Positions 1,220 through 20,465 of a stretch of DNA of 64,000 nucleotides are shown here, one piece after another; position 1 is the stretch's first letter, and every line of letters begins with the position of its first letter. The translations under genes and the position numbers were made by a program. The notes beneath the pieces were generated by a model that did not search any database, was not told where the DNA came from, and saw nothing but the letters and a program-made list of their open reading frames with translations. Source of the stretch: Bordetella genomosp. 10 (lineage in GTDB: Bacteria > Pseudomonadota > Gammaproteobacteria > Burkholderiales > Burkholderiaceae_B); contig NZ_NEVM01000005.1 of NCBI RefSeq assembly GCF_002261225.1, positions 1,550,001-1,614,000 on the forward strand, read 5' to 3'.

Positions 1220-1546
1220 TCAGAACGGAAACTTCATGCCGGGGGGCATGGGCATGCCGGCGGTCACCGCCGACATCTTTTCCTGGCTGGTGGCTTCGGC
1301 CTTGCGCAGCGCGTCGTTGAACGCCGCCGCGACCAGGTCTTCCAGCATGTCCTTGTCGTCGCCCAGCAGGCTGGGGTCGATGGCCACGCGCTTGACGTCG
1401 TGGCGGCAGGTCATGGTGACCTTGACCAGGCCGCCGCCGGAGGCGCCTTCCACCAGTATCTCGGCCAGCGCTTCCTGGGCCTTCTTCATGTTTTCCTGCA
1501 TTTGCTGCGCCTGGCGCATCAAACCGGCCAATTGTCCTTTCATCAT
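1220..1546 (-). CDS. ybaB: YbaB/EbfC family nucleoid-associated protein
   Basis: This small DNA-binding protein (108 aa) starts [20 protein letters not shown] and contains the family core [20 protein letters not shown] and [20 protein letters not shown]. YbaB homologues form dimers that bind DNA as a pincer and coat the nucleoid. The C-terminus is Met/Pro-rich ([18 protein letters not shown]), as in proteobacterial members. It lies between dnaX and recR on the same strand, the conserved context; 174 nt separate it from dnaX. Confidence 0.95.
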
Positions 1547-1720
1547 GATGGGATGTCCTTCTGGAAATGGGATGACTGGGTAAGGTCGCGCGGCGGGCGG
1601 CTCATGCGCCCCGGCGCGCGGCCGGATTCATGCCGGCGCAGGCGCCGGGCAAGACGGATTCGTATTCGCCCGGGCCGGGCGGGAGGATGCCTGTCGGCGC
1701 TCGGTGTCGGGCAGCACGCT

Positions 1721-4129: not shown

Positions 4130-4237
4130 GGGCGGATTGTAGAGCCTGCCGGGCCTGAAAGACGAAAGGGACGGGCCACGACGAACACCGACGCTTCGAC
4201 ACGCGGTTCCGTCATGGCCCGTCCCTGGGGAATTTGG

Positions 4238-4336
4238 TTGACGAGCCTTACTCCGGCACTGATCCTAAACGACTATGGCTGCTTCGTTCCCGACCTGACC
4301 AGGTTCACCGCCGAACCATGCGAAGGGGCCCGTCAA
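4238..4336 (-). ncRNA. ffs: Small bacterial SRP RNA (4.5S type)
   Basis: On the minus strand the segment contains GGTGAACCTGGTCAGGTCGG followed by GAACGAAGCAGCC, the conserved SRP-RNA tip with its GGAA-type loop and the Ffh-binding internal loop. The ends pair: TTGACGGGCC at the 5' end against GGCTCGTCAA at the 3' end, giving one long hairpin of about 99 nt. The RNA joins Ffh to form the signal recognition particle. A TAGAAT box on the minus strand a few nucleotides before the 5' end may be the -10. The exact ends are inferred from pairing. Confidence 0.93.
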
Positions 4337-4438
4337 GGCGAATTCTAGCAGATCGGCGCGCCCGCCCCGCTCCCTCTCGATGCTAGAATCTCAATCCCTC
4401 CAGGCGCGGCCCTCGCCGCGCCCGCTGCTCATCAGCGA

Positions 4439-4513
4439 CTCGCCGTAGTTAAATGGATATAACCGGCCCCTCCTAAGGGTCAATTGGTGGTTCGATTCCA
4501 CCCGGCGAGGCCA
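4439..4513 (+). tRNA. tRNA-Arg (anticodon CCU)
   Basis: A complete cloverleaf can be folded by eye. The 7-bp acceptor stem pairs CTCGCCG with CGGCGAG, the discriminator is G, and CCA is encoded at 4511-4513. The D arm is GTTA...ATAAC. The anticodon stem GGCCC/GGGTC (one G-U) encloses loop CTCCTAA, so the anticodon is CCU. The T arm is GGTGG-TTCGATT-CCACC. The 3' half of this gene is the integration site of the downstream element, and the full gene is kept at the attL side. Confidence 0.96.
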
Positions 4514-4514
4514 A
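4488..4514. repeat. attL: left 27-bp direct repeat of the integrated element
   Basis: These 27 bases run from the T arm through the CCA end of tRNA-Arg(CCU) plus one base. They are repeated without mismatch at 20439-20465. Bases on each side differ (GG before and TCGGC after here; GC before and GTCCC after at the right copy), which defines the repeat limits. The tyrosine integrase gene begins 78 bp to the right. Tyrosine integrases commonly use the 3' half of a tRNA as attB, which fits attL. Confidence 0.93.
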
Positions 4515-4591
4515 TCGGCTTACACTACTGAAATCGCTAACTATCTGATAGCAAAGGGGTTTCCTCGGAGGCCCGCGCTTTCCCTCCCCGT

Positions 4592-6406
4592 ATGAAGGAC
4601 GTGTCGCGTCATAAAACCGTGTCAGTTGAGAGTGACACAGACATGCACCGACTACCTTCTGGCGTCTACCTTCGTGGCGCCGTTTATCAGATTCGAGTCC
4701 TGATTCCTATGGACTTGCAGGCCCAGTTCCCACGCACCAAGGGCGGGAAGCTCAGCACCGCCGCCTACCGGGCCAGCCTGGGGACTACAGACCCGGCCGA
4801 GGCCACCATACGCGCCCATCGCATCCTGGCTGAATGGCGTGCCCGTTTCGAGGGAATGCGTGCGCAAGCCCAGGCCCGTTATGTGGAGCCTGGGCCTGGC
4901 CTGATCGAGCACATAGCCGAACAGGCCCGCCACAGAGTCCTGGCGACAGACGACACCATACGGTCCAGCCCTAAAGCTGCTGCCATGTTGGCAGGCATAA
5001 ACCGGACGCCCGCCCCGTCCTTTTTTTCCCCGCACGACAAGACCCTGCGCCAAGTCTTGACCGGCGCAAGCGTCCGCGCAGCCGTATCTGCCGCTGAGGA
5101 TCACAGCTTCCTCACCCGTGCCCACGCTGAATCATTGGCCGACTGGTATTCCCGGGTCACAGCCGCTCTTAGGCAGGCAATGATCCAAGGGGACTACAGA
5201 GCCGCCCGGGATGAGGCCAAGCGGGTATGCGACTCCCTAGGCGTACCCGTGGACTGGGAATCGCCCAAGCGGGTGGGCGACCTCCAGCGCATCATGCGGA
5301 CCATCGTGAGCGCCTGGATGGACGCCAGCGCCCGAAGCCAGGGGGAGCCTATAGACACCCCAGAGGCCCCTGCATATGCCCAGGAATTCCCCGCGACTCA
5401 GCCAGACCACGCCGCAACGCTGGCCGATGCCCCTGCACCCGAGGCATCCCCCAAGCGGGTAGGCGACCTCCTACCGGATTGGATTCGCCTCAATAGCCCC
5501 AAGCCCGATGCCGTGAAACGCATCGACCGCCCACTTGCCCTATGGCGCGAGGCCACGGGGGACCCCGAGCTTTCCTCGATAACGAGGAAGACCGGCGCGA
5601 CCTTTATTGCCTACTTACTGGACACTGAGTCACGCGGATTCGGACGCAAATCAGCACACACCTACGCCGCCGGAATCAACGCGCTTTTGAATGTGGCCGA
5701 GAAGCAAGGGTACATCGAGCGCAATCCATGCTCATTGCTGGACTTCGATAAAACCCCGGGCGCCGGCAAGCGCACCCCTTGGACTGATGACCAGCTCGCC
5801 AAGATCTTCGGGGCGGCATTGTTCCGAGATATGGAGAATTCGCCTGAATGGCGTGGAGTGCCGAGTGAGGACGGGCGGGCACTCCTGTTGTTGCTGCTGC
5901 ATACCGGGGCTCGTATAGGCGAGGTTGCACAGGCAAGATGCCAGGATTTCGTAATCCGCTCCGGGCTTGAGTGCATCGAAATCAACGCCGAGGCCGGCAC
6001 GGTCAAGACCGATACCAGCGAGCGGGTCATTCCGATTGCCACACACCTCCTAAATGACCCGTGGTTCCGTCAGTGGCTAGATGCCGTCAAGGCAAGAGCA
6101 ACGGGACCTGCGATGCCAGGTTTCCACCGTGGCCCCAAGACTCCACCGGGTGAAGTCGCCATGGAATGGTTGCGAGAGTTCCGTGCACATAACGGGCTGC
6201 CCCCGGGGAAGCTCAATGGATCGCATAAATTCCGCCACTGGATCAGTACCGCCCTCGCCGAAGTCGGGATATCCCCGAGAATTTCGGACGCAGTCACGGG
6301 CCATTCTGCCCGGGGCTCGACGGGACAGAGGACCTATGTGACGGTCACTCTACCCATGATGGCTGATGCTCTGGGGACAATTCGGTGGCCTGCATTGCCG
6401 AGCTAG
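4592..6406 (+). CDS. Tyrosine-type site-specific integrase
   Basis: This 604-aa integrase of the tRNA-Arg element has a DUF6538-like N-terminal segment (HRLPSGVYLRGAVYQIRV), a long SAM-like core-binding region, and a C-terminal catalytic domain. The catalytic set is complete: R441 (TGARIGE), H545-K-F-R548, H571 (TGHSARG) and nucleophile Y582 (RTYVTV). An alternative start is the Met at MHRLPSGVYL, 17 codons in. The gene starts 78 bp from attL and reads away from it, the standard layout. It should catalyse integration at, and excision from, the tRNA 3' end. No excisionase gene is evident beside it. Confidence 0.95.
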   Translation: MKDVSRHKTVSVESDTDMHRLPSGVYLRGAVYQIRVLIPMDLQAQFPRTKGGKLSTAAYRASLGTTDPAEATIRAHRILAEWRARFEGMRAQAQARYVEPGPGLIEHIAEQARHRVLATDDTIRSSPKAAAMLAGINRTPAPSFFSPHDKTLRQVLTGASVRAAVSAAEDHSFLTRAHAESLADWYSRVTAALRQAMIQGDYRAARDEAKRVCDSLGVPVDWESPKRVGDLQRIMRTIVSAWMDASARSQGEPIDTPEAPAYAQEFPATQPDHAATLADAPAPEASPKRVGDLLPDWIRLNSPKPDAVKRIDRPLALWREATGDPELSSITRKTGATFIAYLLDTESRGFGRKSAHTYAAGINALLNVAEKQGYIERNPCSLLDFDKTPGAGKRTPWTDDQLAKIFGAALFRDMENSPEWRGVPSEDGRALLLLLLHTGARIGEVAQARCQDFVIRSGLECIEINAEAGTVKTDTSERVIPIATHLLNDPWFRQWLDAVKARATGPAMPGFHRGPKTPPGEVAMEWLREFRAHNGLPPGKLNGSHKFRHWISTALAEVGISPRISDAVTGHSARGSTGQRTYVTVTLPMMADALGTIRWPALPS

Positions 6407-6711
6407 GAACCCTCTAATCGTGTCCGCGACCAGACTGCCCCCTCAAGGCTCCATAAAACTTGAGCGGTCGTGCCTCACCTCCTGGATGAGCAATGGGGCC
6501 TCCCATACTGTTACGCCTCCTAGCGGCGAAGAATGTTTGGCCGTAAAGCGCGGCACAAAACTAATCATAAGTTAATGCAGAAGATACGGTGAGCCTTACA
6601 ACCGCATGGGCAAACTGGCTTTCCGTTAAATGAGTGCCCGCAAGATAGGTCGCTGCGATAACCTGAGAACCATCCTGGGCGGAGGTATTCTGAAAATGGG
6701 TTGCTGGTGAG
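6407..6711. other. Gene-free stretch between integrase and HEPN gene
   Basis: I find no convincing gene here. A 69-codon ORF overlaps the integrase 3' end in another frame, but it has no plausible ribosome-binding site and looks non-coding. The stretch is AT-richer than the chromosome and probably carries the promoter of the HEPN gene. No clear -35/-10 pair or hairpin terminator was seen. Confidence 0.5.
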
Positions 6712-8070
6712 ATGGGCCTGAGATGTAGACTTATTCAACACGCAATGCGGGCCTCAAAAAGCTACGGGACATCAATGGTTAAAATCACCGGGAAGCACCA
6801 GGAAACCATTAGGACATATGTTGAAAGCTTATCCTATGACGATCTCTCTACCTTCCAAACGACCAATCCTACGTTTCTTCCCCTCAAAAAGCTTATCATC
6901 AGCTTGGCGCCGAAAATGCTCGACGAGCGAGCCGCGATGCTTCTCTGTAGTTCCGCTATCGAAGAAGTATTGGGATTTTCAGAAGACCGCCTACGCTTTA
7001 GTCCGCCCTTCGGTGTAAGCGTCGATACCGCGAGACGTGCGCTGGAACAGCAAAGGCCAGAGCTGTACGCCAATATTCAACAACGCATCGAATCTCTGCC
7101 ACGCCGATATCAGGTTTGTCTTGAGCTGCCACGCATACGGTGGTTAGGACCTTTCCGCGAACCTATTTCGGAAGGGCTAAGTATTGTTGGCGGCTTGCCC
7201 GAAGAATTTGATGGTGAAAACGGCGGCGGCACTGCCAGGCAGCATTTATCCAAGAGGCTAGATGACCCGCAATACAGGCGCCAAAGGGAGACGGCATGGC
7301 TAGAAATTGAGCTGTTTGGTTATGCCGATGAGTCCCCAGAATCACTGCTCATCACGGAAGCGATATCTATTGCTAAGCAGTTGGCATTCGTCTTGGGGCA
7401 GTGCAAATTTCTGGGACTACAGACATCTGGAGCTCGGTACGGTTTCGCGCGAGGGAGCATTAACGACAAGGCGGCCTCTGACGTGCGACGGATCAGATTA
7501 CCCCAGGCCGCTGGGCGGGCCTTGTCCTGTTTGGTACTGTACACCGGTGACATGCTGCCAGAACGCGACACCGACCACCTCGGTAGACTGCTCTACTCTC
7601 AAGACCAGCTAGCGCATAGGCAAGCGCTGCGGCGCTCGATGCTATCAGACGGCTATTCTAAGGTTCGTGACTACTTCAAATGCAAATCTGATCCCGACTA
7701 CGGTCGGATAGCGACCGCAATCGAATGGTTGCTAGATGCCGAGACAGCCGATAACGAAACTCTCGCGTATCTTTCAAGCTGCATTGGACTAGAAGCGTTG
7801 ATAGGTGGCGGAGATGCCTCGGAGAATATCGCGGGCCAGCGCCTAGCCGACCGATATGCGTACACGCTCGGCAGAAATGCCGCAAGACGCAAAGCACTCC
7901 AAGCTCAATACCTGGACGTACTGCAAATTCGCGGCCGACTAGTCCACGGCCGCGTATCGAAGCTTTCTCCGGAAGATCGCCCGAAACTGGATATGGTGCG
8001 TTCCATGCTTGCTGATCTTCTCGTTCACGAAATTGACCTCATGTTCACCCGCAACTGTAACGATTCATGA
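6712..8070 (+). CDS. Apea-like HEPN-domain protein, putative defence RNase
   Basis: This 452-aa protein has a helical C-terminal domain with the HEPN signature R-x4-6-H: R407-GRLV-H412 in LQIRGRLVHGRVSKLS. An upstream helix, LSSCIGLEALIGGGD, resembles the first conserved helix of Apea-like HEPN proteins. HEPN domains with an intact RX4-6H motif are commonly metal-independent RNases in toxin or abortive-infection systems. The N-terminal 300 residues are not recognised; they include FLPLKKLIISLAPKM and a possible ligand- or target-sensing part. Starts at 6712, 6745 or 6775 are all possible, and none has a strong SD. Base composition is well below the chromosome, fitting transfer. The next genes on the opposite strand are a second putative defence pair. 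Confidence 0.7.
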   Translation: MGLRCRLIQHAMRASKSYGTSMVKITGKHQETIRTYVESLSYDDLSTFQTTNPTFLPLKKLIISLAPKMLDERAAMLLCSSAIEEVLGFSEDRLRFSPPFGVSVDTARRALEQQRPELYANIQQRIESLPRRYQVCLELPRIRWLGPFREPISEGLSIVGGLPEEFDGENGGGTARQHLSKRLDDPQYRRQRETAWLEIELFGYADESPESLLITEAISIAKQLAFVLGQCKFLGLQTSGARYGFARGSINDKAASDVRRIRLPQAAGRALSCLVLYTGDMLPERDTDHLGRLLYSQDQLAHRQALRRSMLSDGYSKVRDYFKCKSDPDYGRIATAIEWLLDAETADNETLAYLSSCIGLEALIGGGDASENIAGQRLADRYAYTLGRNAARRKALQAQYLDVLQIRGRLVHGRVSKLSPEDRPKLDMVRSMLADLLVHEIDLMFTRNCNDS

Positions 8071-8223
8071 GTTTCATCTGCGCGATTAGCATCTTAGCCT
8101 TCGCGCCGCGATGACCTATCGTGAATCAGCCCAGATACCTCAGAACACATAGAAAGCGCTACGCGGACCAACTCATATGTAGCAGGCATGCTCTTGCGAC
8201 TGCGAAACAAAGCAGACATCTAG

Positions 8224-8595
8224 TCAAAGGTAGCAAAAGGACTGCGGAGCTACGTTAGTAGGCAGCACGTTGCTCAATGCCAATGGCTTCTCGTACTTAC
8301 GGACCGCCTTTACCTCGATTGCGTACGCTGTGGTCCGCCCCCGAAAATATTGATTAAAAAATCGACGTGTTATCCCCGCAAAGTCACTCGTTTTTTTCCA
8401 CACATCGTGCGGCCTGGCAGACAAAATAGCGCCAATTTCGAACTCACCGACGACCTTACCAACAGGCATTGTTGCGTAAATAACAACCGTCGTAACATCC
8501 GGATTTTTAAAAACCGCTTTGCGAAATTCGAATTTCTTTTCGCCATCGAGTATTTTTTCAGCAAACTCCGGCTTAATGGACAATAAGACTCTCAT
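8224..8595 (-). CDS. ASCH-domain protein (PUA-fold, RNA-binding type)
   Basis: This 123-aa protein has the ASCH signature GxKxxExR near its N-terminus: G18-E-K20-K-F-E23-F-R25. A beta-strand with a conserved-looking glycine follows (VVIYATMPVGKVVGEFEIG), then an aromatic region (FFNQYFRGRTTAYAIEV). ASCH proteins have a PUA-like fold and bind or cleave RNA. The ATG at 8595 is preferred because AGGGGG lies 5 nt upstream; a TTG one codon earlier is also open. It overlaps the 3' end of the GNAT gene by 23 bp, so the two are almost certainly translated together. Confidence 0.8.
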   Translation of the reverse strand: MRVLLSIKPEFAEKILDGEKKFEFRKAVFKNPDVTTVVIYATMPVGKVVGEFEIGAILSARPHDVWKKTSDFAGITRRFFNQYFRGRTTAYAIEVKAVRKYEKPLALSNVLPTNVAPQSFCYL

Positions 8596-9628
8596 CAATT
8601 CCCCCTAACTGTGCAATACGGCATAACTGTGCATCTGAAATAGGCAATAGTGACCAGCGGGCGGCTCGGTCGATCCCAACCTCATCCGCTAGCTTCTGCC
8701 GCGTCACTCGGCGGTGAAGGGCAATATTATAGGTAAATCGCAGCACATGGGGATACTTTCTTTTCTCCCAAAACCCAATCAGTTCGGCATCAGTGAAGAC
8801 ACTGTAGGGAGCGCAATATCGCAAAAAACTGTCCAAATCAATAAATGAATTTATATGCCGATATTCTTCGATGACACAGAGCGACGTGGCCACAGAACGA
8901 TACTCGGCCGGACCTTTATTGTCCGAAGTGCGATAGATAACAATTGGATCACCAACACGCAGATTAGACATTCCAGGTATGGCGCCCAGATATACCTTGT
9001 GAATACTATTCGTGTGCGATACATCCTGGACGATACTTAAATTCTCGTTATTAAGTATAGAGTCCGGCAGAAGACGCGTATGCCACTCAGGGTACAACGC
9101 AAGAAGATACGGCTGCGCCCCATTGACGTTAACTAGCGGGTAGCTAGGCATCGGCCCGTCATATCCGTTTCTTATCTCCCGCAGGTATAAACCCTCGATC
9201 CCGTTGGGCGTTATTTTGTTCGCCACTTGCCGAAACCCGTACGTTTGGAATAGCTGAATGAGCGGGCCATGATGCTCAAAAATTGTCACGTAGAGCTGAG
9301 TCGCCCCTTGCTCCACCGCGTGGTCGAATATCTTCTTCATAAATCTCTCGCCCAGTCGGGTGCCATGGGCATTGATCTTGAATGTTCCTATCTTGATTCG
9401 CCGAGCTGGAGCCAGTGGGGGCACAACATCCAGCACCGCGTCGTCCTCCCGTTTCAGGTAGAGGAACCCGTCCAGCGCACCCTCGTCAGAATAGAAAACG
9501 TAGGCGCGTTCGCCGCCCCCAGCTTTGCGCTGATACCAATCAGAGAATTCGACGTAATCCCTCTTTAAGGAATCAAAGAAAGGATCCGCCAGGTTTGTTT
9601 CCCCGAACGTTTTGTATTCCATCCCCAT
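8573..9628 (-). CDS. GNAT acetyltransferase fused to a PUA/EVE-like domain
   Basis: The product is about 351 aa. Residues 1-165 look like a GNAT acetyltransferase (LGERFMKKIFDHAVEQGATQ, then FEHHGPLIQLFQTYGFRQV, the typical C-terminal GNAT strand-helix). Residues 195-320 resemble an EVE/PUA-like module (KVYLGAIPGMSNLRVGDPIV, then YRSVATSLCVIEEYRHI). The last part, TRQKLADEVGIDRAARWSLL, could be a small helical DNA/RNA-binding tail. I chose the ATG at 9628 because GGGGG lies 4-5 nt before it; ATG 9643 is an alternative. The gene overlaps the downstream ASCH gene. A two-gene GNAT/PUA plus ASCH unit suggests modification of tRNA, nucleotides or a translation factor. The function is inferred only. 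Confidence 0.7.
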   Translation of the reverse strand: MGMEYKTFGETNLADPFFDSLKRDYVEFSDWYQRKAGGGERAYVFYSDEGALDGFLYLKREDDAVLDVVPPLAPARRIKIGTFKINAHGTRLGERFMKKIFDHAVEQGATQLYVTIFEHHGPLIQLFQTYGFRQVANKITPNGIEGLYLREIRNGYDGPMPSYPLVNVNGAQPYLLALYPEWHTRLLPDSILNNENLSIVQDVSHTNSIHKVYLGAIPGMSNLRVGDPIVIYRTSDNKGPAEYRSVATSLCVIEEYRHINSFIDLDSFLRYCAPYSVFTDAELIGFWEKRKYPHVLRFTYNIALHRRVTRQKLADEVGIDRAARWSLLPISDAQLCRIAQLGGIDESLIVH

Positions 9629-9845
9629 ATAGCCCCCAGCCATTCGTCAGAAAATCCACGCGGACAAATTTGGAATAATGTGGTGTTACGCATTGTTAGC
9701 GTAACCGAACTTAACCCGGCAAACAACAGTGTCGTTACGTCCGCGATTTTCGAGGCCCCGTGTTTCGCAGCCGACCTGGCAGCTTAATGTGCTCGCCACC
9801 GCTCGCCAGTATTGCCTTGGGTGAATTCGAGGCAGCAGGCTGGAT

Positions 9846-9895
9846 TGATTGCCTGGACGGTGAGGGTCAGGATTATCTCTAAGATTCTTAAAGAG
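9846..9895 (+). repeat. Island direct repeat, copy A
   Basis: This copy begins TGATTGCCTGGACGGTGAGG and continues with a CAGG-ATTATCT segment and a TCTTAAAGAG tail. Copy C at 18412 shares both the first part and the CAGG/TTATCT/TAAGAG tail, an imperfect repeat of roughly 45-50 bp. Copy B at 10019 shares only the first 20-25 bp. It lies about 250 bp before the large phage-type gene. Confidence 0.7.
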
Positions 9896-10018
9896 TGGTT
9901 CGCACGAGCCACAGCATTGAGCAGGCCGCCCGTCTGCTGAATTAAATCCGCAGAGGATGACGAGGGTAGCGCTGCGAGGGGCGGATGATTTGACGGAGGG
10001 TGAGGCGATGCCCGGCAA

Positions 10019-10043
10019 TGATTGCCTGGAGGGTGAGGACCCC
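10019..10043 (+). repeat. Island direct repeat, copy B
   Basis: It reads TGATTGCCTGGAGGGTGAGG then ACCCC. The first 11 bases match copies A and C exactly; the next ten differ from A at one position. It sits 54 bp before the start codon of the 1431-aa gene, so it may belong to that gene's promoter or operator. Confidence 0.65.
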
Positions 10044-10096
10044 AGGCCGCTGCGGCGGCATCCCCCTACACCCACCTTCCAGGAAAGTGTCCACAT

Positions 10097-14392: not shown

Positions 14393-14455
14393 TCCGCTTC
14401 GCATTTCACGCTTCAAATCGTGCTGCATAGCGTGTCCTTCCGTGTGTGTGGTTTT

Positions 14456-14489
14456 CGCCCCCGGTCGCAAGGCTGGGGGCGTTTGTTTT
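14456..14489 (+). terminator. Intrinsic terminator after the 1431-aa gene
   Basis: Stem CGCCCCC/GGGGGCG (7 bp, all G-C) with a 12-nt loop is followed by TTTGTTTT. It lies 64 bp after the stop codon, on the coding strand. Confidence 0.85.
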
Positions 14490-14586
14490 GCCGCCACGTG
14501 GAGGCCAATAGCATGCGCATAAACGCGGCGCATACGTCCGCATCCCGCCCATTCGCAAGGGCACACTAACCACGAAGCTATTCACC

Positions 14587-15222
14587 ATGCACATGTTCAA
14601 AATTGGATCCCAGTTAACCTGGAAAACTACAACAGAAATTCCCTGCGCAGACGCCACCCCTCAAGGCATTCGCGCTGGCATTGAGCGATATGCAAACGAG
14701 ACCAACTCAATTTCCTATATGGTCTTCGATCATATGAACCTAACGCAACTGCATCTACCGGATGGTTGCAATGCTGAGGGTGCCACCTTTCGCAACTGCA
14801 ACCTGGTCGGATTGGTAGCCAAAGGATGTACGTTCGACTATGCAGACTTATCCGGCGCTGACATATCCGGCGCGATAGTCGAAAACTCATCGTTCGGTTG
14901 CGCCAAAGCTGCCGGCTTGTTGGCGAGGGGACTTCGGGGAAAAGGCTCATTCTGGACTGGCTCGCGCATTCGGCAGGCCCGCTTTGATGATGCCGATCTG
15001 CGACTAACGCACTTTTCACATGCCCGCGCGGAAGGCGCTTCTTTTAAGAATGCCCAACTGTTACTCGCTCATCTATCGACCATGGCCGCTGACCTTTCAG
15101 CATTGCTCGAATGTTGCGAACCAGCGGAGGTTATTCAAGCCGCGCTTTTTTACGGCGAACCTCCCGCCGCGATCCTAGAACAACACGGACTCACCGAAGC
15201 GGCAAAGGAGGCCCGCGCATAA
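14587..15222 (+). CDS. Pentapeptide-repeat protein
   Basis: The product is 211 aa. From about residue 50 to 155 it shows the A(D/N)LXX periodicity of pentapeptide repeats (NLTQLHL, GATFRNCNLVGL, CTFDYADLSGADISGA, ARFDDADLRLTHF), which fold as a right-handed quadrilateral beta-helix. Some members mimic DNA and protect gyrase; many have no known role. Here the repeats are irregular and the flanking parts are not recognised. It is the first gene of a three-gene unit: its TAA overlaps the next ATG (TAATG). No strong SD precedes the first ATG. A second pentapeptide protein lies at the right end of the element. Confidence 0.75.
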   Translation: MHMFKIGSQLTWKTTTEIPCADATPQGIRAGIERYANETNSISYMVFDHMNLTQLHLPDGCNAEGATFRNCNLVGLVAKGCTFDYADLSGADISGAIVENSSFGCAKAAGLLARGLRGKGSFWTGSRIRQARFDDADLRLTHFSHARAEGASFKNAQLLLAHLSTMAADLSALLECCEPAEVIQAALFYGEPPAAILEQHGLTEAAKEARA

Positions 15223-15722
15223 TGGTCACAAAGGCAAAATCGGGCGCGAGTAACTCGGACAACGCGCCGCCCGTAAAGACCCGCAAGTTGACCGAAGAAC
15301 AGCGCCAAGCTGAAGTAACCCTCGCTTTCGTACGAAGGCTCGATGCCATTATCGACGACCGCCAAAGTTTGGAGGCGGACCGGGCAGCGGCATTGGCGTC
15401 GCTTGCTGACGATATGGCCCCACACGCCTATGGGACCCGCGCAGACACCTTGCGCTGGGCCGCCGTTCGTTTGTGCAGTGACCACCGTGGCGCGTATCAA
15501 GCCGCGCTGCGTGCGCTAGACGTTGTCTCAACTGAGTTGGAGCGAAGCGCTAGTGGAATTCTGTCCCGCAACGACATGACGGCGGATCATCCTGATGCCA
15601 TCCAACCGTATACGGCACCACCCCGAGACAACCCCTTCCGCACCTTTGAACGGGACTACAACCCGCGAGGCCGCAATGATGGTCGGCCGAGCTTCGGTCA
15701 CCCTATAGAGAGCATTCGATGA
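15222..15722 (+). CDS. Hypothetical protein, second gene of the pentapeptide operon
   Basis: The product is 166 aa, starting MVTKAKSGASNSDNAPP. I do not recognise a family. The middle is predicted helical and charged (LTEEQRQAEVTLAFVRRLDA, then ALRALDVVSTELERSASG). The C-terminal 40 residues are Pro/Arg/Asp-rich and probably unstructured. The start at 15222 is supported by AAAGGAGG 12 nt upstream and by the TAATG overlap with the preceding stop; a longer ORF that opens at 15111 would overlap the pentapeptide gene. Its stop overlaps the next start as ATGA. Confidence 0.65.
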   Translation: MVTKAKSGASNSDNAPPVKTRKLTEEQRQAEVTLAFVRRLDAIIDDRQSLEADRAAALASLADDMAPHAYGTRADTLRWAAVRLCSDHRGAYQAALRALDVVSTELERSASGILSRNDMTADHPDAIQPYTAPPRDNPFRTFERDYNPRGRNDGRPSFGHPIESIR

Positions 15723-15910
15723 AAGATTCTGTATTTCTCAAGCAACCCGACGGCACCTATGCCGAGTGCAACGGCTGGACCGGCGAGCCGATTCCAGGTG
15801 GCATGCGCAATCGGGGTTATAGGCCGCTTACTCCGGACCAGGCCAAGCAAGCATGGGACACATCCCCTGATCCCTTCGGGCCTATCACGTACTACCCGGG
15901 CTCACTCTGA
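15719..15910 (+). CDS. Small hypothetical protein, third gene of the pentapeptide operon
   Basis: The product is 63 aa (MKDSVFLKQPDGTYAECNGW...). It starts within the stop of the previous gene (ATGA), so translation is probably coupled. It has two short Gly/Pro turns and several aromatic residues, with no transmembrane segment or known motif. Overlapping start/stop codons on both sides of its neighbour argue that it is real. Function unknown. Confidence 0.6.
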   Translation: MKDSVFLKQPDGTYAECNGWTGEPIPGGMRNRGYRPLTPDQAKQAWDTSPDPFGPITYYPGSL

Positions 15911-15953
15911 CAACGCCCCAATATCGCCCCGCTCATCACTAAGCCGCACGCCT

Positions 15954-16160
15954 ATGTATCCTCAACTAGTTAAAGACGCAATTGCGTTGTCCGCCCTGGG
16001 CAACAGAAAGGTTAACGCCATCATCGCGCGTAGCCTCGTGCTATCTGCCGCGCTCACCGCCAAGTCCACATACGATTCAGAAATGAGTCGCGGTGCGATA
16101 GATCGCCCCATCATGTGCTCTGGTGGGCAAGTCATTGGGTATGAATCGACATCCCTGTAG
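15954..16160 (+). CDS. Small hypothetical protein before a terminator
   Basis: The product is 68 aa (MYPQLVKDAIALSALGNRKV...), with an Ala/Leu/Ser-rich helix in the middle (IIARSLVLSAALTAKS). The SD is weak. It ends 28 bp before a good terminator, which makes it a plausible last gene of the pentapeptide transcript. No family recognised. Confidence 0.4.
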   Translation: MYPQLVKDAIALSALGNRKVNAIIARSLVLSAALTAKSTYDSEMSRGAIDRPIMCSGGQVIGYESTSL

Positions 16161-16188
16161 TCACGCCCACACACTGAAGAAAACAAGG

Positions 16189-16211
16189 AGCCCGCCCATG
16201 CGGGCTTTTTC
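16189..16211 (+). terminator. Intrinsic terminator closing the pentapeptide operon
   Basis: Stem AGCCCGC/GCGGGCT (7 bp) with loop CCAT is followed by TTTT and CACGC. It stands 28 bp after the 68-aa ORF and before the zinc-ribbon gene. Confidence 0.8.
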
Positions 16212-16232
16212 ACGCACCTCATTACACCCCTT

Positions 16233-16424
16233 ATGCAGACTGACAACACAAAGCATTGCCACGCTTGCCTATTGCGTAGGCCCATTTTCCAATTTGGCCG
16301 CGACAACAGTCGCAAAGACAGACTCAACGTCCGTTGCCGGTCCTGCGATAACCGCCTGCGTTCCGAGCGCAAACGCACTGCGCGTACTCGGGCGACTGCC
16401 GTCCCCACCGCATTGGGGGCCTAG
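16233..16424 (+). CDS. Small zinc-ribbon / treble-clef protein
   Basis: The product is 63 aa. Two CxxC knuckles, KHCHACL and VRCRSCDN, are spaced by a segment with an aromatic FQFGRDNSRKDRL. This is the layout of the small zinc modules found in phage HNH/endonuclease VII-like proteins (CxxC...F...RKDGL...CxxC). A basic Arg/Lys tail follows. There is no catalytic His-Asn motif, so it is more likely a nucleic-acid-binding accessory than a nuclease. SD weak. Confidence 0.55.
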   Translation: MQTDNTKHCHACLLRRPIFQFGRDNSRKDRLNVRCRSCDNRLRSERKRTARTRATAVPTALGA

Positions 16425-16429
16425 ATATC

Positions 16430-16963
16430 ATGTCCAGCCAGAAGCCGGCACAGGCACCTCTAAATACCTCTGCGTTTTCACGGATATTTCGCAGTCCCAC
16501 GCGCGATCCGCTCCAGGTTCAGCGTAGCAAACGATTCGGGGTAGTACGGGTCCCCCTCGTGCCTCACGACTTGAAGTTAGTCCTCAACCACCCCCATGTT
16601 TATCTACGCTTGGCAGACTACCGCCGCCTGACCTATCAACACGGGGCAATGAGTAGTCGGTGGTGGCAAGAGGACAACGGGGATATCCGCGCCCTCGACT
16701 GGGATGACCCTGCCTATACCCTCAGCATCCCCGCGTTAGTAGTAGCCGCCCGAGATGGAGACAGGATTGAAGTGCCAACCAATGGAATCCTCATGCCTCA
16801 CGCAATACGGGTCCACCGACCGGGACGTGGAGTTATGAGCGGCTATACGTCGCTCCGGGAGTCCATTGGCGACCTTACTGACCAAGACGGCGAATATTGG
16901 CTTAAGAGGTTCAGGGCAAAAGGCACGCCGTGCCTGCCCCATGACTCCAGCGCCCGCGTATAA
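16430..16963 (+). CDS. Hypothetical protein (177 aa)
   Basis: I do not recognise a family. It begins MSSQKPAQAPLNTSAFSRIF and has a central region with many aromatics (HVYLRLADYRRLTYQHGAMS, then RWWQEDNGDIRALDWDD). It lies 5 bp after the zinc-ribbon gene and 24 bp before the BRO gene, all on the plus strand, so the three probably form one transcript. The spacing and coding-like composition support it as a gene. Confidence 0.5.
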   Translation: MSSQKPAQAPLNTSAFSRIFRSPTRDPLQVQRSKRFGVVRVPLVPHDLKLVLNHPHVYLRLADYRRLTYQHGAMSSRWWQEDNGDIRALDWDDPAYTLSIPALVVAARDGDRIEVPTNGILMPHAIRVHRPGRGVMSGYTSLRESIGDLTDQDGEYWLKRFRAKGTPCLPHDSSARV

Positions 16964-16987
16964 CAAAACAGTAAGAGCAAAAAAAAA

Positions 16988-17653
16988 ATGAACCACCTCC
17001 AGCAGTTCAACTTTCGGGCTCAGCGTGTTCGTGTTGTTGAGATCGACGGGAAACCATGGTTTCACGCTTCGGATGTATGCGCCGTCCTGGCAATTGCAAA
17101 CACCGCTAGCGCCGTTACTGCAATCCCGAGCCAACATAAATATCGGCAAAGCCTAGATTTGCCTGGCCGCGCTCCGTGGTTTCTATCGGAATCGGGTCTG
17201 TACCGCCTGATTATGAGATCGAACAGACCCGAGGCCGCGTCTTTTCAAGACTGGATCACCGATGAAGTTCTGCCGAGCATTCGCCAAACGGGTGCATACG
17301 GACCCGTCAATGCTGCGGCTCTGGCGGTCGTGCGGCATACGCTAGAGAAAGTGGACCGCACGGTGGAACATAGGACGCGCCACGACTTCTATCGGCAGAC
17401 GGAAAGAAGCCGTGAGCGTATTGCCTCGGTCGTTGCCGAGGAAGCCGACAAGAACGCGCTTCCTTCTACCGTGGTCGAGCGATTACGCAATGGCACCATC
17501 GACGCAGTCATGGCTGATTACTTTGGTGATGAGGATGCACGTCGGCGCATTGAGCGTGAACGCGAAAGCATCAGGCTGCAGTTTGAGCGGAGCCTAACGA
17601 CGAAGCCCCTCGTGCCGCGAAAGGTCAGCCACCATCGAGCCCTAAGGGACTAG
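16988..17653 (+). CDS. BRO-N (Bro family) phage antirepressor-like protein
   Basis: The product is 221 aa. The N-terminal 110 residues match the BRO-N pattern: FNFRAQRVRVVEIDGKPWF, then HASDVCAVLAIANTASAV, WFLSESGLYRLIMRSNRPEA and FQDWITDEVLPSIRQTGAYG. BRO-N domains bind DNA and occur in phage and virus antirepressors. The C-terminal half is charged and helical (ERERESIRLQFERSL). There is no KilA/ANT C-terminal domain that I recognise. An A9 run directly precedes the ATG, and no SD is obvious. In an element it could control lytic/excision genes, but its target repressor is not visible here. Confidence 0.85.
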   Translation: MNHLQQFNFRAQRVRVVEIDGKPWFHASDVCAVLAIANTASAVTAIPSQHKYRQSLDLPGRAPWFLSESGLYRLIMRSNRPEAASFQDWITDEVLPSIRQTGAYGPVNAAALAVVRHTLEKVDRTVEHRTRHDFYRQTERSRERIASVVAEEADKNALPSTVVERLRNGTIDAVMADYFGDEDARRRIERERESIRLQFERSLTTKPLVPRKVSHHRALRD

Positions 17654-17752
17654 CTTTCCCTCAGGGGTATCCCAATGGACCGCGCAAACGGCCTAGGAGC
17701 CCACGGGACCCACGGTGTAGCCGAGCGTATGGCCCACGCGTCCTGGGGCCGC

Positions 17753-17857
17753 CTATGGCCCTTTGCGGGGCTTCTGGCGGCCTCGGATCACGATGACGAA
17801 TGCCGGCACCGCCAGGGCCAGTCCGATAAGGATGCCGATGACGAGCCAGGTGGTCAT
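17753..17857 (-). CDS. Tiny single-pass membrane protein candidate (34 aa)
   Basis: The minus-strand ORF starts MTTWLVIGILIGLALAV, continues as one hydrophobic helix to about residue 24, and ends in a basic tail RGRQKPRKGP. An in-frame TGA lies six codons upstream, fixing the ATG. The hydrophobic helix plus positive tail is what a small membrane peptide (toxin-like, holin-like or regulatory) would look like. There is no clear SD, so it may be chance. Confidence 0.35.
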   Translation of the reverse strand: MTTWLVIGILIGLALAVPAFVIVIRGRQKPRKGP

Positions 17858-17900
17858 GGAGCGCTCAGGGAGTCACTGGGACGCCTATGCTACCCCGGGC

Positions 17901-18062
17901 TCATTTTTCTCCCGAAAATGCGTGCATAGGTGTTCCGGCCCGCGCGAGGCGGATTCCCCCCATGGGGCGGCCGGCGGCGCCAGGCTGGAAACCGAGGCTC
18001 CCAGGGGGTGCGGGGACGGGGTAGCTGGTCGTGTTGCTTCGGTGCTGGCTTAGTCGCTCCAT
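17901..18062 (-). CDS. Possible small ORF (53 aa)
   Basis: The minus-strand ORF starts MERLSQHRSNTTSYPVPAP and ends HAFSGEK. Its ATG lies inside the 3' end of a 12-codon ORF (MSYAMVSRLWSD) that has a good SD (GGGGAG) before it. The two could be coupled, as leader and main ORF. The 34-aa membrane ORF follows 43 bp downstream. Composition is Pro/Gly/Arg-rich, and the region is otherwise empty on both strands. Weak case. Confidence 0.25.
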   Translation of the reverse strand: MERLSQHRSNTTSYPVPAPPGSLGFQPGAAGRPMGGIRLARAGTPMHAFSGEK

Positions 18063-18252
18063 AGCCGTGACACCATCGCGTAGCTCATGCGACTCCCCAA
18101 ATGCCCCTGCAAGCCCCGCAAAGGGCCCTAGAGGGCGCCAGGACTGACGGGCGGCACAACTCCCATCTTTGAGGGATCCAGGCCCCTAGCTGCCCCAATG
18201 CGCCCTCCCCAAGCGCGAGACGCTAATCCTTGCCTCCGGTTACAGCACGTTG

Positions 18253-18414
18253 ATGCGGGCGAAGACCATTGCACGTTGGATGGAGCTGAAAGCAAAAAGA
18301 GGCAGCCCAGCGCTGGCGCGAAACCTTGCGGAAGCGCTACGCCTCGCAGCGGGCCAGGCGGAGCAAATTGCTGCTCTAGCCGCGCAGTTGGAGGCCCAAG
18401 CGTGTCCTGAATGA
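18253..18414 (+). CDS. Small helical protein (53 aa)
   Basis: The product starts MRAKTIARWMELKAKRGSPA and continues ALARNLAEALRLAAGQAEQI to a heptad-like end IAALAAQLEAQ. It looks like a short amphipathic coiled coil. Its TGA is the first TGA of island repeat copy C (TGATTGCC...), so the repeat begins exactly at the gene end. No clear SD; the regular helix pattern is the main support. Confidence 0.45.
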   Translation: MRAKTIARWMELKAKRGSPALARNLAEALRLAAGQAEQIAALAAQLEAQACPE

Positions 18415-18462
18415 TTGCCTGGAAGGTAGAGTCCCAGGGTTATCTATAGGTTATCTAAGAGA
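18412..18462 (+). repeat. Island direct repeat, copy C
   Basis: It begins TGATTGCCTGGAAGGTAGAG, then CCCAGG, TTATCT twice and a TAAGAG tail. It matches copy A at 9846 over a longer stretch than copy B does. An internal inverted repeat CTAAG-AGATAG-CTTAG starts near its end. Copies A and C lie 8.57 kb apart in the same orientation and bracket the phage-like genes. Confidence 0.65.
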
Positions 18463-18625
18463 TAGCTTAGAGAGTCTTTGAGACTTCGTAAGAGATGCCG
18501 CCACCTGCCCACCCACACCACTCGGTCTAAGCCAGGTGATGACATCTCAGAACACCAGGACCTCCCTCCGCGTCGATGTGTTAGCCGCAGCGTGGTTGAA
18601 AGCACAGCGGGACTACTTTGCCTCT

Positions 18626-18739
18626 GGCTCATAACTTGTAAGTAGTGGACTCCCATCTCGGCTAACTTATTCACTAGGCTCAGAACATGCTTGACTCTAT
18701 GTTTTGAGCCATATAGTATTGAGCCCTGTGTTATGAGCC
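18626..18739. promoter_or_regulatory. Iterated GGCTCANAAC motifs upstream of the serine recombinase (putative res/operator)
   Basis: Five copies of a 10-bp motif lie within 115 bp: GGCTCATAAC at 18626, GGCTCAGAAC at 18677, and in the opposite orientation GTTTTGAGCC at 18701, GTATTGAGCC at 18716 and GTTATGAGCC at 18730. The copies at 18677 and 18701 form a 34-bp dyad (10-14-10). The last three are spaced 14-15 bp. This is the layout of a resolvase/invertase binding region or an autoregulatory operator. The recombinase ATG follows 15 bp after the last copy. Confidence 0.65.
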
Positions 18740-18754
18740 AACCGAGACAGGGAC

Positions 18755-19351
18755 ATGAGCAATCTCGCCTACTACCGCGTAAGCACTCAAGGACAAGCAA
18801 TTGATTCACAGCGGAGCGCCTTCAGAGGCGTCTCCGACATGAAAGAGTTCATCGACATAGGGATCAGCGGCAAGACCCTAATGCGGGAGCGCCCACAGGC
18901 GGCGGCAATGCTTGCATATATCCGCGAAGGAGACCTACTGCACGTCTATGCACTGGACCGACTCGGCAGGGATTCAATCGACGTACAGACAACCGTGAGG
19001 GACCTGCTAGAGCGTGGCGTTCGGCTGTACGTTCACGGCATAGGCGAGATAGCCCCAGGGCCTACTGGGGCGCTCGTGGTCGCGTTGCTGGCCCAGGTCG
19101 CAGACATGGAACGCGCACGGATCAACGAACGTACCAGCGACGGCAAACGCATAGCTAAAGAATCCTTCGACCGCACCGGTAAGACGCATCATGGCAAGGC
19201 CAGCCTAGGTGGTCGCCCAGCTACCCATGACCTTCCGGCGATTGCCGCCTGGCGTAAAGAGCAGGGGGCTTCCCTGGCTGCCACGGCGCAGCATTTCGGG
19301 GCAAGCATCGCCACAGTGAAGCGGGCGTGCAGCACGGACATTAAAGAGTGA
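18755..19351 (+). CDS. Serine recombinase (resolvase/invertase family)
   Basis: The product is 198 aa. The N-terminal catalytic domain has YYRVSTQGQ with R8 and nucleophile S10, and ALDRLGRDS with R69 and R72. The E helix region (ALLAQVADMERARINERTS) is typical of small resolvases. The C-terminus holds a GGRPATH linker and a helix-turn-helix (SLAATAQHFGASIATVKRA). The family catalyses resolution or inversion at short dyad sites; an iterated motif block lies directly upstream. The element therefore carries two recombinases of different mechanism. Confidence 0.92.
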   Translation: MSNLAYYRVSTQGQAIDSQRSAFRGVSDMKEFIDIGISGKTLMRERPQAAAMLAYIREGDLLHVYALDRLGRDSIDVQTTVRDLLERGVRLYVHGIGEIAPGPTGALVVALLAQVADMERARINERTSDGKRIAKESFDRTGKTHHGKASLGGRPATHDLPAIAAWRKEQGASLAATAQHFGASIATVKRACSTDIKE

Positions 19352-19426
19352 GCACATTTGCTCGCATCTGTTTTTTTGCCCACGTCGGCCGGGCATGAGG
19401 CCGACACTTCAAAGATGGTGACACCC

Positions 19427-19867
19427 ATGCGTGAAGACACTGTGATCAAGTCCGTTTCCATCCCGACTATCGCAGGCGTCCGGCGCCCGCGCGTAGCTTT
19501 TCCTACGGGAATTTTCTATGAAGCGGATGCGATTGGATGCGGGCTAGAAATTCTTGCCGCGAAAGGTACAAAGCTGGTCGGCCTGGACTTGCATGACCAA
19601 GACCTTGCCAGCTTGGAGCTGGACGGCATACGGCTCCAGGGCGCGTCCCTGGTGGGTGCCAACCTTGCAGGAGCACGTCTACGGAAGGCAACTTTCAAAC
19701 ACTGCGACCTCCGGGGCGTCACACTGACCGCTTCGGACATGCACGGAGCTCATTTTGAGGATTGCGACCTCACCGCAGCGAATCTCCCTGATGACGCAGA
19801 AACAGTCGCTGAATTCGTTCGCTGCAATATTGACGGCGTAAGCGAGCACGCCAGCCAGGTCCAATAG
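19427..19867 (+). CDS. Second pentapeptide-repeat protein
   Basis: The product is 146 aa. It has a clear right-handed beta-helix repeat from about residue 53 to 116: LVGLDLHDQDLASLELDGIR, LQGASLVGANLAGARLRKAT, FKHCDLRGVTLTASDMHGAH. It lies about 75 bp after the recombinase. Starts at 19358, 19415 and 19427 are open in frame; I chose 19427 because GGTG precedes it, with low certainty. The function may be DNA mimicry or none known. It has little sequence in common with the pentapeptide protein at 14587 beyond the repeat, so it is not a recent duplicate. Confidence 0.8.
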   Translation: MREDTVIKSVSIPTIAGVRRPRVAFPTGIFYEADAIGCGLEILAAKGTKLVGLDLHDQDLASLELDGIRLQGASLVGANLAGARLRKATFKHCDLRGVTLTASDMHGAHFEDCDLTAANLPDDAETVAEFVRCNIDGVSEHASQVQ

Positions 19868-19965
19868 AGCAAGTACCGTCCTACGATGGATTGGCGACGC
19901 GCCTAAAAGGACTAAAGGTGCGTCGCCGGAATCCCCCTAATGGGCTTCAGCTCAAAGGGTGGCCT

Positions 19966-20298
19966 CTAGGCGGATATCTCTCGAAAATGAGTCTTCAGCT
20001 CGGTAAAGCTTCCTGCGATGGGTTCCGCGCTATCGGCATCCATACCGATCATAGGCATGAGAAACACGGCTCCACTCTCATCGAAAACATACAGCTCATC
20101 TCCGCCGTCACCCGCGAAGGCAACGTAGCCTGGCGCGAACGTGTCGATTTGCATTCCGTCGTTGGACTCCACGATTTCTGCCATCGACCAGAAAACAATG
20201 GCTAAGCAACTGTCCTGCGAAGGTATCCAGCAGTCCAACTCCCCTAAACCGTGCTTGGCGATGTACTCCTCATACTCAGGCGGTATCGGCGGGCGCAT
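19966..20298 (-). CDS. SUKH (SMI1/KNR4) family protein, possible immunity protein
   Basis: The product is 110 aa. It begins PPIPPEYEEYIAKHGLGEL and contains the family core LAIVFWSMAEIVESNDGM and YVAFAGDGGDELYVFD, then a hydrophobic strand VFLMPMIGMD. SUKH-1 proteins are mostly immunity partners of polymorphic toxins. No toxin gene lies next to it, so it may be an orphan immunity gene or serve another role. It is the last gene before attR and points inward from that end. Confidence 0.8.
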   Translation of the reverse strand: MRPPIPPEYEEYIAKHGLGELDCWIPSQDSCLAIVFWSMAEIVESNDGMQIDTFAPGYVAFAGDGGDELYVFDESGAVFLMPMIGMDADSAEPIAGSFTELKTHFREISA

Positions 20299-20347
20299 AT
20301 GGTCTCCGTGGCAGGACGTGGTGGTCTGGGCGCCACTGCGAGGTTAT

Positions 20348-20430
20348 CGCGAGCGCTCGCGCATGATACCCTCCCGACTGTGTCACTTCGTGGCATAAAT
20401 CGCCCGTGACACGCCCCTCTGCACAGAGGG
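20348..20430. promoter_or_regulatory. Palindromes next to attR (putative integrase arm or terminator sites)
   Basis: Between the SUKH gene and attR are a perfect 14-bp palindrome CGCGAGCGCTCGCG (20348-20361), an inverted repeat GTGTCAC/GTGACAC (20380-20386, 20406-20412) and a hairpin CCCTCT-GCAC-AGAGGG (20415-20430). Dense symmetric sites beside an att core are expected for accessory factor binding. A terminator role is possible for the last hairpin, although no T run follows. Confidence 0.4.
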
Positions 20431-20438
20431 AAAGCGGC

Positions 20439-20465
20439 TGGTTCGATTCCACCCGGCGAGGCCAA
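20439..20465. repeat. attR: right 27-bp direct repeat
   Basis: A perfect copy of 4488-4514, namely the T arm, acceptor 3' strand and CCA of tRNA-Arg(CCU) plus one base. There is no 5' half of a tRNA to its left, so it is a duplicated attachment site and not a second tRNA gene. The chromosomal lysR gene ends 48 bp to its right. Confidence 0.93.

Follow-up and report, generated by a model that had tools for sequence, protein, structure and literature searches.

An element in tRNA-Arg(CCU) and its genes

The window considered here is a stretch of 64,000 nucleotides from Bordetella genomosp. 10 (contig NZ_NEVM01000005.1, positions 1,550,001 to 1,614,000), and this report concerns an integrated element within it that occupies the end of a tRNA-Arg(CCU) gene and carries a gene for an ejection protein of the T7 gp16 type. 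Its features are collected in Table 1. A preliminary description had reported a perfect 27-bp repeat at both ends of a 16-kb element in this tRNA gene, and the repeat is indeed exact at both positions. The attachment (att) core consists of the final 26 bases of the tRNA gene and one base beyond, in direct orientation, and the element measures 15,951 bp from att to att. The G+C content per kb is 0.47-0.66 in 5001-20000, compared to 0.61-0.77 in the rest of the window. A near-mode search at the DNA level found no plasmid or known-phage relatives of the element.

Table 1. Features of the element, in window coordinates
Feature	Position	Strand	Basis
tRNA-Arg (CCU), integration target	4439-4513	+	ARAGORN, Rfam tRNA
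attL, 27-bp exact repeat in tRNA 3' end	4488-4514	+	Repeat search
Tyrosine integrase, DUF6538 N-terminus and Phage_integrase	4592-6406	+	Pfam; 41%, 40% and 45% identical to L016, L017 and L056 integrases
HEPN-like protein, RGxLVHG motif, cargo, 452 aa	6712-8070	+	Motif; no family match
ASCH protein, PDC-M11B / GevA-like antitoxin	8224-8598	-	PADLOC; 57% to gene annotated GevA
GNAT-type protein, PDC-M11A / GevT-like toxin, overlaps ASCH gene	8573-9643	-	PADLOC; 48% to gene annotated GevT
T7 gp16-type ejection (internal virion) protein, intact, 1431 aa, sole virion gene	10097-14392	+	PHROG 342, E 1.6e-39
Pentapeptide-repeat protein	14587-15222	+	Pfam
167-aa protein, homologue (39%) in L056 satellite	15219-15722	+	Sequence comparison
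63-aa open reading frame, no family match in Pfam or PHROGs	15719-15910	+	Open reading frame list
63-aa protein resembling zinc end of endonuclease VII	16233-16424	+	PHROGs and comparison
177-aa open reading frame, no family match in Pfam, PHROGs, PADLOC or NCBIfam	16430-16963	+	Open reading frame list
BRO-N / anti-repressor-like protein	16988-17653	+	Pfam, PHROGs
Packaging-type site, apparently non-coding, common to helper-type phages	17868-18040	+	Sequence comparison, HMM
Serine recombinase (resolvase/invertase type)	18755-19351	+	Pfam Resolvase, E 1.5e-27; 29-32% to L016, L017 and L056
Pentapeptide-repeat protein	19358-19867	+	Pfam
SUKH (SMI1/KNR4) protein	19966-20298	-	Pfam
attR, 27-bp exact repeat	20439-20465	+	Repeat search

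The two kinds of recombinase noticed earlier are both present. The tyrosine integrase has the full R-HxxR-H-Y set (R441, H545xxR548, H571 and Y582), which we take to be the catalytic residues and which is invariant in an alignment of four integrases, and the second enzyme is a clear Pfam Resolvase match. The mixture of defence-like and phage-like cargo is likewise borne out, and consists of the PDC-M11 pair, the BRO-N and SUKH proteins, two pentapeptide-repeat proteins and gp16. The preliminary description also held that there are no structural or replication genes. This is correct for replication: no capsid, portal, terminase, primase or replication family was matched in the open reading frames (ORFs) tested (19 in Pfam, 18 in PHROGs and 10 in NCBIfam). 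It is not correct for structure, since the protein that was called ejection-type is itself an internal virion protein, and the element thus has one structural gene.

The PDC-M11 candidate defence system is defined by adjacent M11A (GNAT) and M11B (ASCH) genes, and PADLOC finds both here, with E values of 1.1e-131 and 2.5e-51. The same two overlapping genes occur in the lambda-like Escherichia phage PhiR47_2, where they are annotated as a GevT toxin and GevA antitoxin; there they lie beside cI, whereas here they are carried by the element. A literature search with the names GevA, GevT and GevAT found nothing relevant among the papers listed. The 452-amino acid (aa) protein, presumably of HEPN type, had no family match in Pfam, PHROGs, PADLOC or NCBIfam; its RGxLVHG motif is kept in the sole other homologue among the matches listed (32% identical), and the database entry of the same protein has a later start and 431 aa. 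The sequence GATTGCCTGGAnGGT occurs three times in the element (9847, 10020 and 18413), twice directly ahead of gp16, and was absent, allowing one mismatch, from the 14 scanned IMG/VR loci.

Empty sites were looked for in six congeners, which are genomes of other species of the closest genus, 84-92% identical at the tRNA flank. In all six the tRNA-Arg(CCU) is present and about 20 kb of sequence contain just one att copy (with one mismatch in one genome), and neither an integrase homologue at this tRNA nor gp16 was found in any of them. In two, the right flank of the window returns 0.2-0.3 kb past the tRNA, minus the two window genes adjoining attR; in the remaining four the tRNA and the flank are separated by 4-12 kb of other DNA, with no second att copy. 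The check for an empty tRNA-Arg site that had been proposed therefore gives an unoccupied site in every congener, which contradicts the refuting condition set there, that no strain lacks the insert. Site-specific integration with empty sites in relatives, and the absence of genes for a whole virion from the window ORFs tested and from the relatives described below, are both general properties of phage satellites.

The gp16 gene and its phage counterparts

The closest relative of the window gp16 (75% identical) is in an IMG/VR record of 51,281 bp, L001, which is a full podophage. (L numbers denote loci and G numbers genomes.) In L001 the gene is preceded by genes for a scaffold, major head, two tail proteins, an internal virion protein (PHROG 805), a gp15-like protein and an endolysin-domain protein, and is followed on the same strand by further large ORFs, whose position suggests the tail-fibre type, and a T7-type terminase. 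PHROGs gave no match to gp15, for phage or satellite copies. Comparison of the element with the 24-kb L001 locus at the DNA level shows similarity over 10178-14382, in other words the gp16 gene only, at 74% identity. A second match, further along the same record, is the shared site described below. Capsid genes are also present in 13 of the 14 IMG/VR loci with gp16; the remaining one, L007, is a cut record with gp15, lysozyme and terL.

When species genomes were scanned with gp16, five loci were found. L018-L020 are prophages that have capsid and terL, and the other two, L016 from Burkholderia anthina and L017 from Burkholderia sp. Ax-1724, are elements of the same build as that in the window. 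Across 16 phage gp16s 118 residues are invariant; the window protein keeps 117 of them, L016 117 and L017 114, compared to 85.5-100% for phages left out in turn. The numbers of non-synonymous (dN) and synonymous (dS) substitutions per site are 0.192 and 0.913 between the window and L001 (dN/dS 0.21), and 0.028 and 0.264 between L016 and phage L006, which are 95% identical. With L005 as outgroup, the L016 satellite branch has 121 synonymous and 57 non-synonymous changes, and the L006 phage branch 91 and 28. Each of the three satellite gp16s falls with a relative of its own: the window with L001 (76%), L016 with L006 (95%), and L017 with P0017 (80%; the context of P0017 was not seen). Judged by these substitution patterns, and by those of gp15 given below, the lone ejection genes that are seen intact in the satellites are under purifying selection.

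Relatives of the same build

Both L016 and L017 start at a tRNA-Pro(GGG). They have exact att repeats of 28 bp, 14,286 bp apart, and 29 bp, 14,313 bp apart, respectively, with integrases 41% and 40% identical to that of the window and a serine recombinase in each. Eight other virion and packaging proteins of L001 were searched for in 24 kb of each, and none was found. A gene of about 200 aa (51% identical) is common to both and was not detected in the window. The two differ in cargo, L016 having DUF4062 and a DRT8 reverse transcriptase, and L017 weak matches to PDC-M36A and PDC-S32. The recombinase gene lies in opposite orientation in L016 (7200-7820) compared to L017 (8771-9394) and the metagenomic record L056 (8337-8942), in elements that are otherwise similar; an invertible cassette was considered, and despite the difference in orientation no convincing flanking inverted repeat was found.

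In all, gp16 was found in 4 of 65 genomes of the L016 genus (two full length, in a satellite and a prophage, and two C-terminal remnants), in 1 of 144 of the L017 genus, and in 5 of 398 of a family sample, these being three of the L016-genus hits again and two prophages. The remnants, L047 (G009) and L048 (G065), are 67 residues long and lie about 1.5 kb from sequence like the attR region of L016. They are likely to be dead satellites, though the stretches examined show no att core.

A search for the integrase in the 144 genomes of the L017 genus gave 13 hits at E ≤ 1e-100, one of them L017. Of the other twelve, eight were examined: L100 has the site and recombinase, L105 the recombinase only, and six the integrase alone. 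In L100 (G472, 7913-18300) the integrase has a stop, and the candidate defence cargo is 76% identical to that of L017. L105 (G488, 1241-11112) is a 9.9-kb att-bounded element in tRNA-Pro with a related integrase and recombinase and a gene with weak UvrD/GajB-type matches; it is perhaps a satellite of another helper.

IMG/VR searches with the L017 gp16 alone, and with the window integrase alone, gave no further satellites. An alignment of L017-type gp16s found L056, L057, one record already known, and L059 (24%). An integrase alignment found only L056 again, and a recombinase alignment L056 and L087, the latter with no other feature except a weak integrase-like match.

A joined attP in a metagenomic record

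L056 is 60,898 bp long. It contains, in order, the 3' end of a satellite gp16, small genes, attP, integrase, site, recombinase, gp16, a phage with terL and capsid, and the phage gp16. The attP has the attR flank of L017 on its left, a 27-bp tRNA-Pro core, and the attL flank of L017 on its right, and no tRNA gene was found there. This is the junction predicted by joining the ends of L017. Excision is thus seen as a joined attP in this relative, and not for the window element.

The satellite unit measures 15,745 bp. A phage from another metagenome, L057, is 99% identical to the phage part of L056 over 12 kb, and closes on itself with a 127-bp overlap to give 46,820 bp. The satellite is therefore about one third of the size of the phage, and three units come to 47,235 bp. 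Beside the join, the L056 gp16 is 92-100% identical to that of the phage, diverging to about 73-90% towards both ends. Residues of approximately 300-1056 are present once, and can be assigned to neither the satellite nor the phage copy. The join may be the assembler's product of a recent recombination between the two gp16 genes, or else a genuine cointegrate.

A site shared with phages

A stretch within window 17868-18040 resembles Burkholderia-type phages, with about 79-83% identity over 70-92 bp. In 13 phage records this site lies about 148-779 bp past terL, where the ends of terL were set by hand from BLAST. In T7-type phages the genome end is located just after terL, and the site is apparently a packaging-type signal of the T7-like helper phage.

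A hidden Markov model (HMM) was built from seven phage and two satellite sites. Among nine untrained phage loci with enough sequence past terL, it found clear sites after terL in five: L013 (2e-10), L012 (3e-7), L019 (7e-7), L056 and L057. It also found the site in the satellites L126 (7e-36), L124 (1e-29), L127 (1e-24), L056 (3e-17) and L100 (3e-13). As a control, 20 triplet-block shuffles of nine loci gave a best E of 0.24. There was no match in six host loci (up to E 10) or in the rest of the window. All 10 IMG/VR contigs with the exact site pattern also hold phage terL. The window site is closest by score to that of L001, the phage with the closest gp16, and an upstream block is common to both in the alignment. 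L001 terL matched 2558 phage records, each below 60% identity, so that none of them is a close isolate whose mapped ends could serve to prove the site.

Two other explanations of the site were rejected. Rfam at gathering thresholds found only the tRNA, which does not favour a known RNA. A target of the serine recombinase is not favoured either, because phages have the site, but the three phages searched have no recombinase homologue.

Two further observations were made around the site and terL. An inverted repeat of 34 nt (88%), at 17740-17773 and 18111-18144, frames the site in the window; no such pair was found in the searched stretches of L001, L003 and L016. In L058 (20309-20716, the same record as L002) an EndoVII-type gene, 29% identical to that of L016, lies directly ahead of terL, and it may serve in processing DNA for packaging. 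A longer EndoVII-like gene in L126 is 96% identical to the one in L016.

Satellites found by the site, and gp15

The site pattern, with up to one mismatch, is present in 5 of 65 Burkholderia genomes, and the reversed pattern, used as a control, in none. The five are a prophage (G044), L016 (G001), and three new elements in G025, G031 and G063, which are taken to be satellites because of their recombinase (95-97% identical to that of L016), small genes and site. None of the three has a gp16 match. Instead, G025 and G031 have a complete gp15 of 859 aa, 90-91% identical to Burkholderia-type phage gp15, and in G063 only a C-terminal remnant of gp15 was found. The two complete genes are 95.5% identical, with dN/dS 0.095; between satellites and phages the value is 0.135-0.151, and between two phages 0.084.

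A structural model of the G025 gp15 (predicted local confidence, pLDDT, 72) matched just two PDB entries below 0.001, both of the T7 ejectosome tunnel: 7k5c (4.5e-5) and 6yt5 (4.5e-4). Among the viral matches listed, 14 of 50 are named internal virion protein, and most of the others have no functional name. A search of the PDB by sequence found nothing for gp15.

The element in G031 (L126) is complete, in tRNA-Pro, with 15,190 bp between att copies and PDC-M55C as cargo. G025 carries DRT8. In both G025 and G063 the attR core is present, and integrase and attL were not found in the DNA examined. Among the 144 L017-genus genomes, three sequences that look unlike the site matched the pattern with one mismatch, and L017 and L100 were missed.

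Overall, all five elements that have the site and either both ends or a closed circle (the window, L016, L017, L126 and L056) contain one ejection gene, four of these being seen intact and that of L056 in parts. The gene is gp16 in L016, L017 and L056 and gp15 in L126; all four relatives have a homologous integrase and serine recombinase, and none has capsid or terminase. The three damaged elements (G025, G063 and G472/L100) have one intact ejection gene, one remnant and none, respectively. The four chromosomal elements with both ends differ in their known or candidate defence genes: PDC-M11 in the window, DRT8 in L016, PDC-M36A/PDC-S32 (weak) in L017 and PDC-M55C in L126.

Comparison with known systems

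P4-like satellites integrate in tRNA genes, are about one third of the size of their helper and carry defence cargo, together with a P4-type primase and genes that control capsid and transcription. By these features the family here is similar in integration, size and cargo, and differs in the type of helper; no P4-type primase or control gene was matched in Pfam, PHROGs or NCBIfam. PICI and cfPICI are integrative and helper-dependent, with AlpA/Stl, rep and terS, or with their own capsid and terminase, and some have virion genes. The likeness here is again in integration, presumed helper dependence and possession of a virion gene, the difference being that the single virion gene of the window is for an ejection protein; no capsid, terminase, AlpA or Stl match was found in the window ORFs tested.

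The PICMI of Vibrio, as described in the accessible part of PMC10803314, are small integrative elements that have no capsid-remodelling genes, excise, and protect the host from other phages. Their DNA is packaged in normal capsids as a concatemer of helper size (PMC10803314), which for the present family can only be proposed. PICMI use a fis site, PICMI115 is 6.1 kb, and the model requires integrase, AlpA, primase and Fis (PMC10803314). By contrast, the present family uses tRNA sites, is 14-16 kb long, and has a serine recombinase and a helper ejection gene. Compared to the PICMI set of integrase, AlpA, DUF3987/DUF5906 primase and fis site, the window element has the integrase, with a tRNA site and no AlpA or primase match.

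A 2024 review (PMC11389934) lists, in its accessible text, P4-like, PICI, cfPICI, PLE, PICMI, VEIME, tycheposons and a soil group as satellites, and that text has no word beginning 'ejection'. In the accessible part of PMC6893505 an ejection term occurs only within a reference title. No satellite with an ejection protein was found in the open-licence literature at the level of titles and abstract openings.

A further parallel is the T7 ejectosome, in which gp15 and gp16 together form a periplasmic tunnel; T7 requires gp14, gp15 and gp16 both for morphogenesis and for delivery of its genome (PMC8954989, accessible text). The likeness consists of the chain match of gp15 to 7k5c and 6yt5, the assignment of gp16 by PHROG 342, and the L001 gene order of internal virion protein, gp15-like protein, lysozyme and gp16. 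The differences are that each satellite encodes one of the two partners, and that the lysozyme gene is separate in L001.

Interpretation

Judged by sequence, the family is most likely a phage satellite outside the satellite families tested. The best reading is a new satellite family whose members would supply one half of the DNA ejectosome of the helper. For the window element, the probability of this reading, as an integrative satellite of temperate T7-like podophages with the cycle set out below, is estimated at roughly 0.7. A satellite was one of the options in the preliminary description, which could not match the element to a satellite family it could name; the comparisons above agree on the second point, and the first is supported by the relatives of the same build, the site at a fixed place after terL, the attP of L056 and the six empty sites. 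That description did not remark on the packaging-type site or on the meaning of a lone ejection gene. The same genes together with capsid or terminase at the tRNA, which had been put forward as a sign of an ordinary decayed prophage, were not found: satellites share with the phages examined gp15 or gp16, the site, and at most two genes of low identity. L056 does join satellite to phage, but inside gp16 and possibly by assembly.

We envisage the following cycle. The integrase would excise the element at the tRNA-Arg repeats, as the attP of L056 indicates for that relative, and the excised element would be amplified with helper functions. The helper terminase would then package it from the shared site, as the position of the site suggests, probably as about three head-to-tail copies in a capsid of normal size. 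The satellite gp16 (gp15 in some relatives) would enter the core of the particle, replacing or mixed with the protein of the helper, and would then become part of the ejectosome that delivers the DNA. The cargo, here the PDC-M11 pair and the HEPN-like protein, may protect the host from other phages, as the families of these genes suggest.

The precedents of T7 and P22 imply that a satellite supplying one partner could either help its own entry or spoil that of the helper. In P22, changes in ejection proteins overcome the entry block imposed by SieA, and foreign ejection proteins are incorporated (PMC10883804, accessible text). The likeliest gain would be particles with an ejectosome unlike that of the helper, able for example to enter cells whose prophage blocks the ejection proteins of the helper. 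Several satellite copies are highly identical to phage ones, which favours compatibility, and entry is therefore our first choice. The wider proposal, that each satellite supplies gp15 or gp16 to make a chimeric injection machine that favours its own entry or handicaps the helper, and so commits piracy at DNA delivery, seems to us about evenly poised.

Several points weigh against these proposals. The gp16 profile did not find T7 gp16 among PDB sequences, where only coiled-coil-type and other unrelated chains were matched, and the structural model of the gp16 C-terminus is poor (pLDDT 47). The global TM-scores of the gp15 matches are low (0.17-0.23), indicating a chain-wise match rather than a superposition. 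L016, L017 and L056 were found through gp16, so that its presence there follows from the way they were chosen. The damaged L100 has neither gp15 nor gp16, nor has L105, in which no site was detected either, so that not every member of the wider group has an ejection gene. L056 is possibly an assembly join, with its satellite gp16 seen only in parts. After terL the site HMM gave 0.39 for L002, which is marginal (its 0.14 in the shuffle set is hardly better than the shuffled best), a chance-level 1.1 for L010, and nothing for L007 and L020; the L017 site is weak (0.0037, or 0.0013 in a smaller search) and falls outside the pattern. The L016 site is closest to that of L004 (97%) but its gp16 to that of L006 (95%), so that site and gp16 do not always track one helper. 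Finally, the packaging role of the site is argued from position and conservation, and packaging and transduction in helper particles is suggested by the shared site alone.

The same facts could be read with the ejection gene as a weapon, such that gp16 or gp15 in helper particles would mismatch its partner and the particles would fail at DNA delivery. We regard this as unlikely. It agrees with the presence of only one of the two partners in each satellite, and with the loss of infectivity in P22 when gp16 or gp20 alone is changed to the Sf6 form (<10^4 compared to 5x10^10 plaque-forming units/mL, with Sf6 gp16 still entering particles; PMC10883804, accessible text). However, three satellite copies (L016 gp16, L125 and L126 gp15) are 90-95% identical to the phage copy and the satellite gp16s keep nearly all invariant residues, both of which look compatible, and poisoned particles would block the satellite as well. 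It is improbable that the protein is instead made in the lysogen to keep incoming related phages from delivering their DNA. Entry blocks that act on ejection proteins are known, as with SieA of P22 (PMC10883804, accessible text), and the satellites carry defence-type genes, but at 859-1431 aa, full length and with nearly all invariant residues kept, these virion proteins exceed the needs of a decoy.

A further possibility is that the gene serves as homologous sequence through which satellite and helper recombine, so that cointegrates are formed and packaged as one. L056 agrees with this, being joined inside gp16 with identity highest next to the join, but that join may be an assembly product, the protein is under purifying selection, and the window and L001 are only 74% identical in DNA; we consider it very improbable. 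Least probable is an ordinary prophage that has lost all but one late gene by chance, which would account for gp15 or gp16 and the site being common to satellites and phages, but is disfavoured in that neither integrase nor recombinase was matched when three phages were searched (L001 over its record, two prophages over 55-60 kb), the only other matches to these beyond gp16 and the site are a 29% EndoVII-type and a 49% BRO-domain one, L001 matches only gp16 and the site region where several shared genes would be expected, the genes are intact and under selection, and the same small set recurs with either of two ejection genes.

Known satellites are reported to redirect capsid size, packaging or late transcription of their helpers. 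If, as the satellite reading proposes, gp15 or gp16 works in particles, satellites would take over DNA injection as well, and the family would provide natural chimeras for studying gp15/gp16 pairing, ejectosome assembly and exclusion. The site provides a marker for both satellites and helpers that is independent of the ejection gene. The varied defence cargo implies that the family would also move anti-phage systems.

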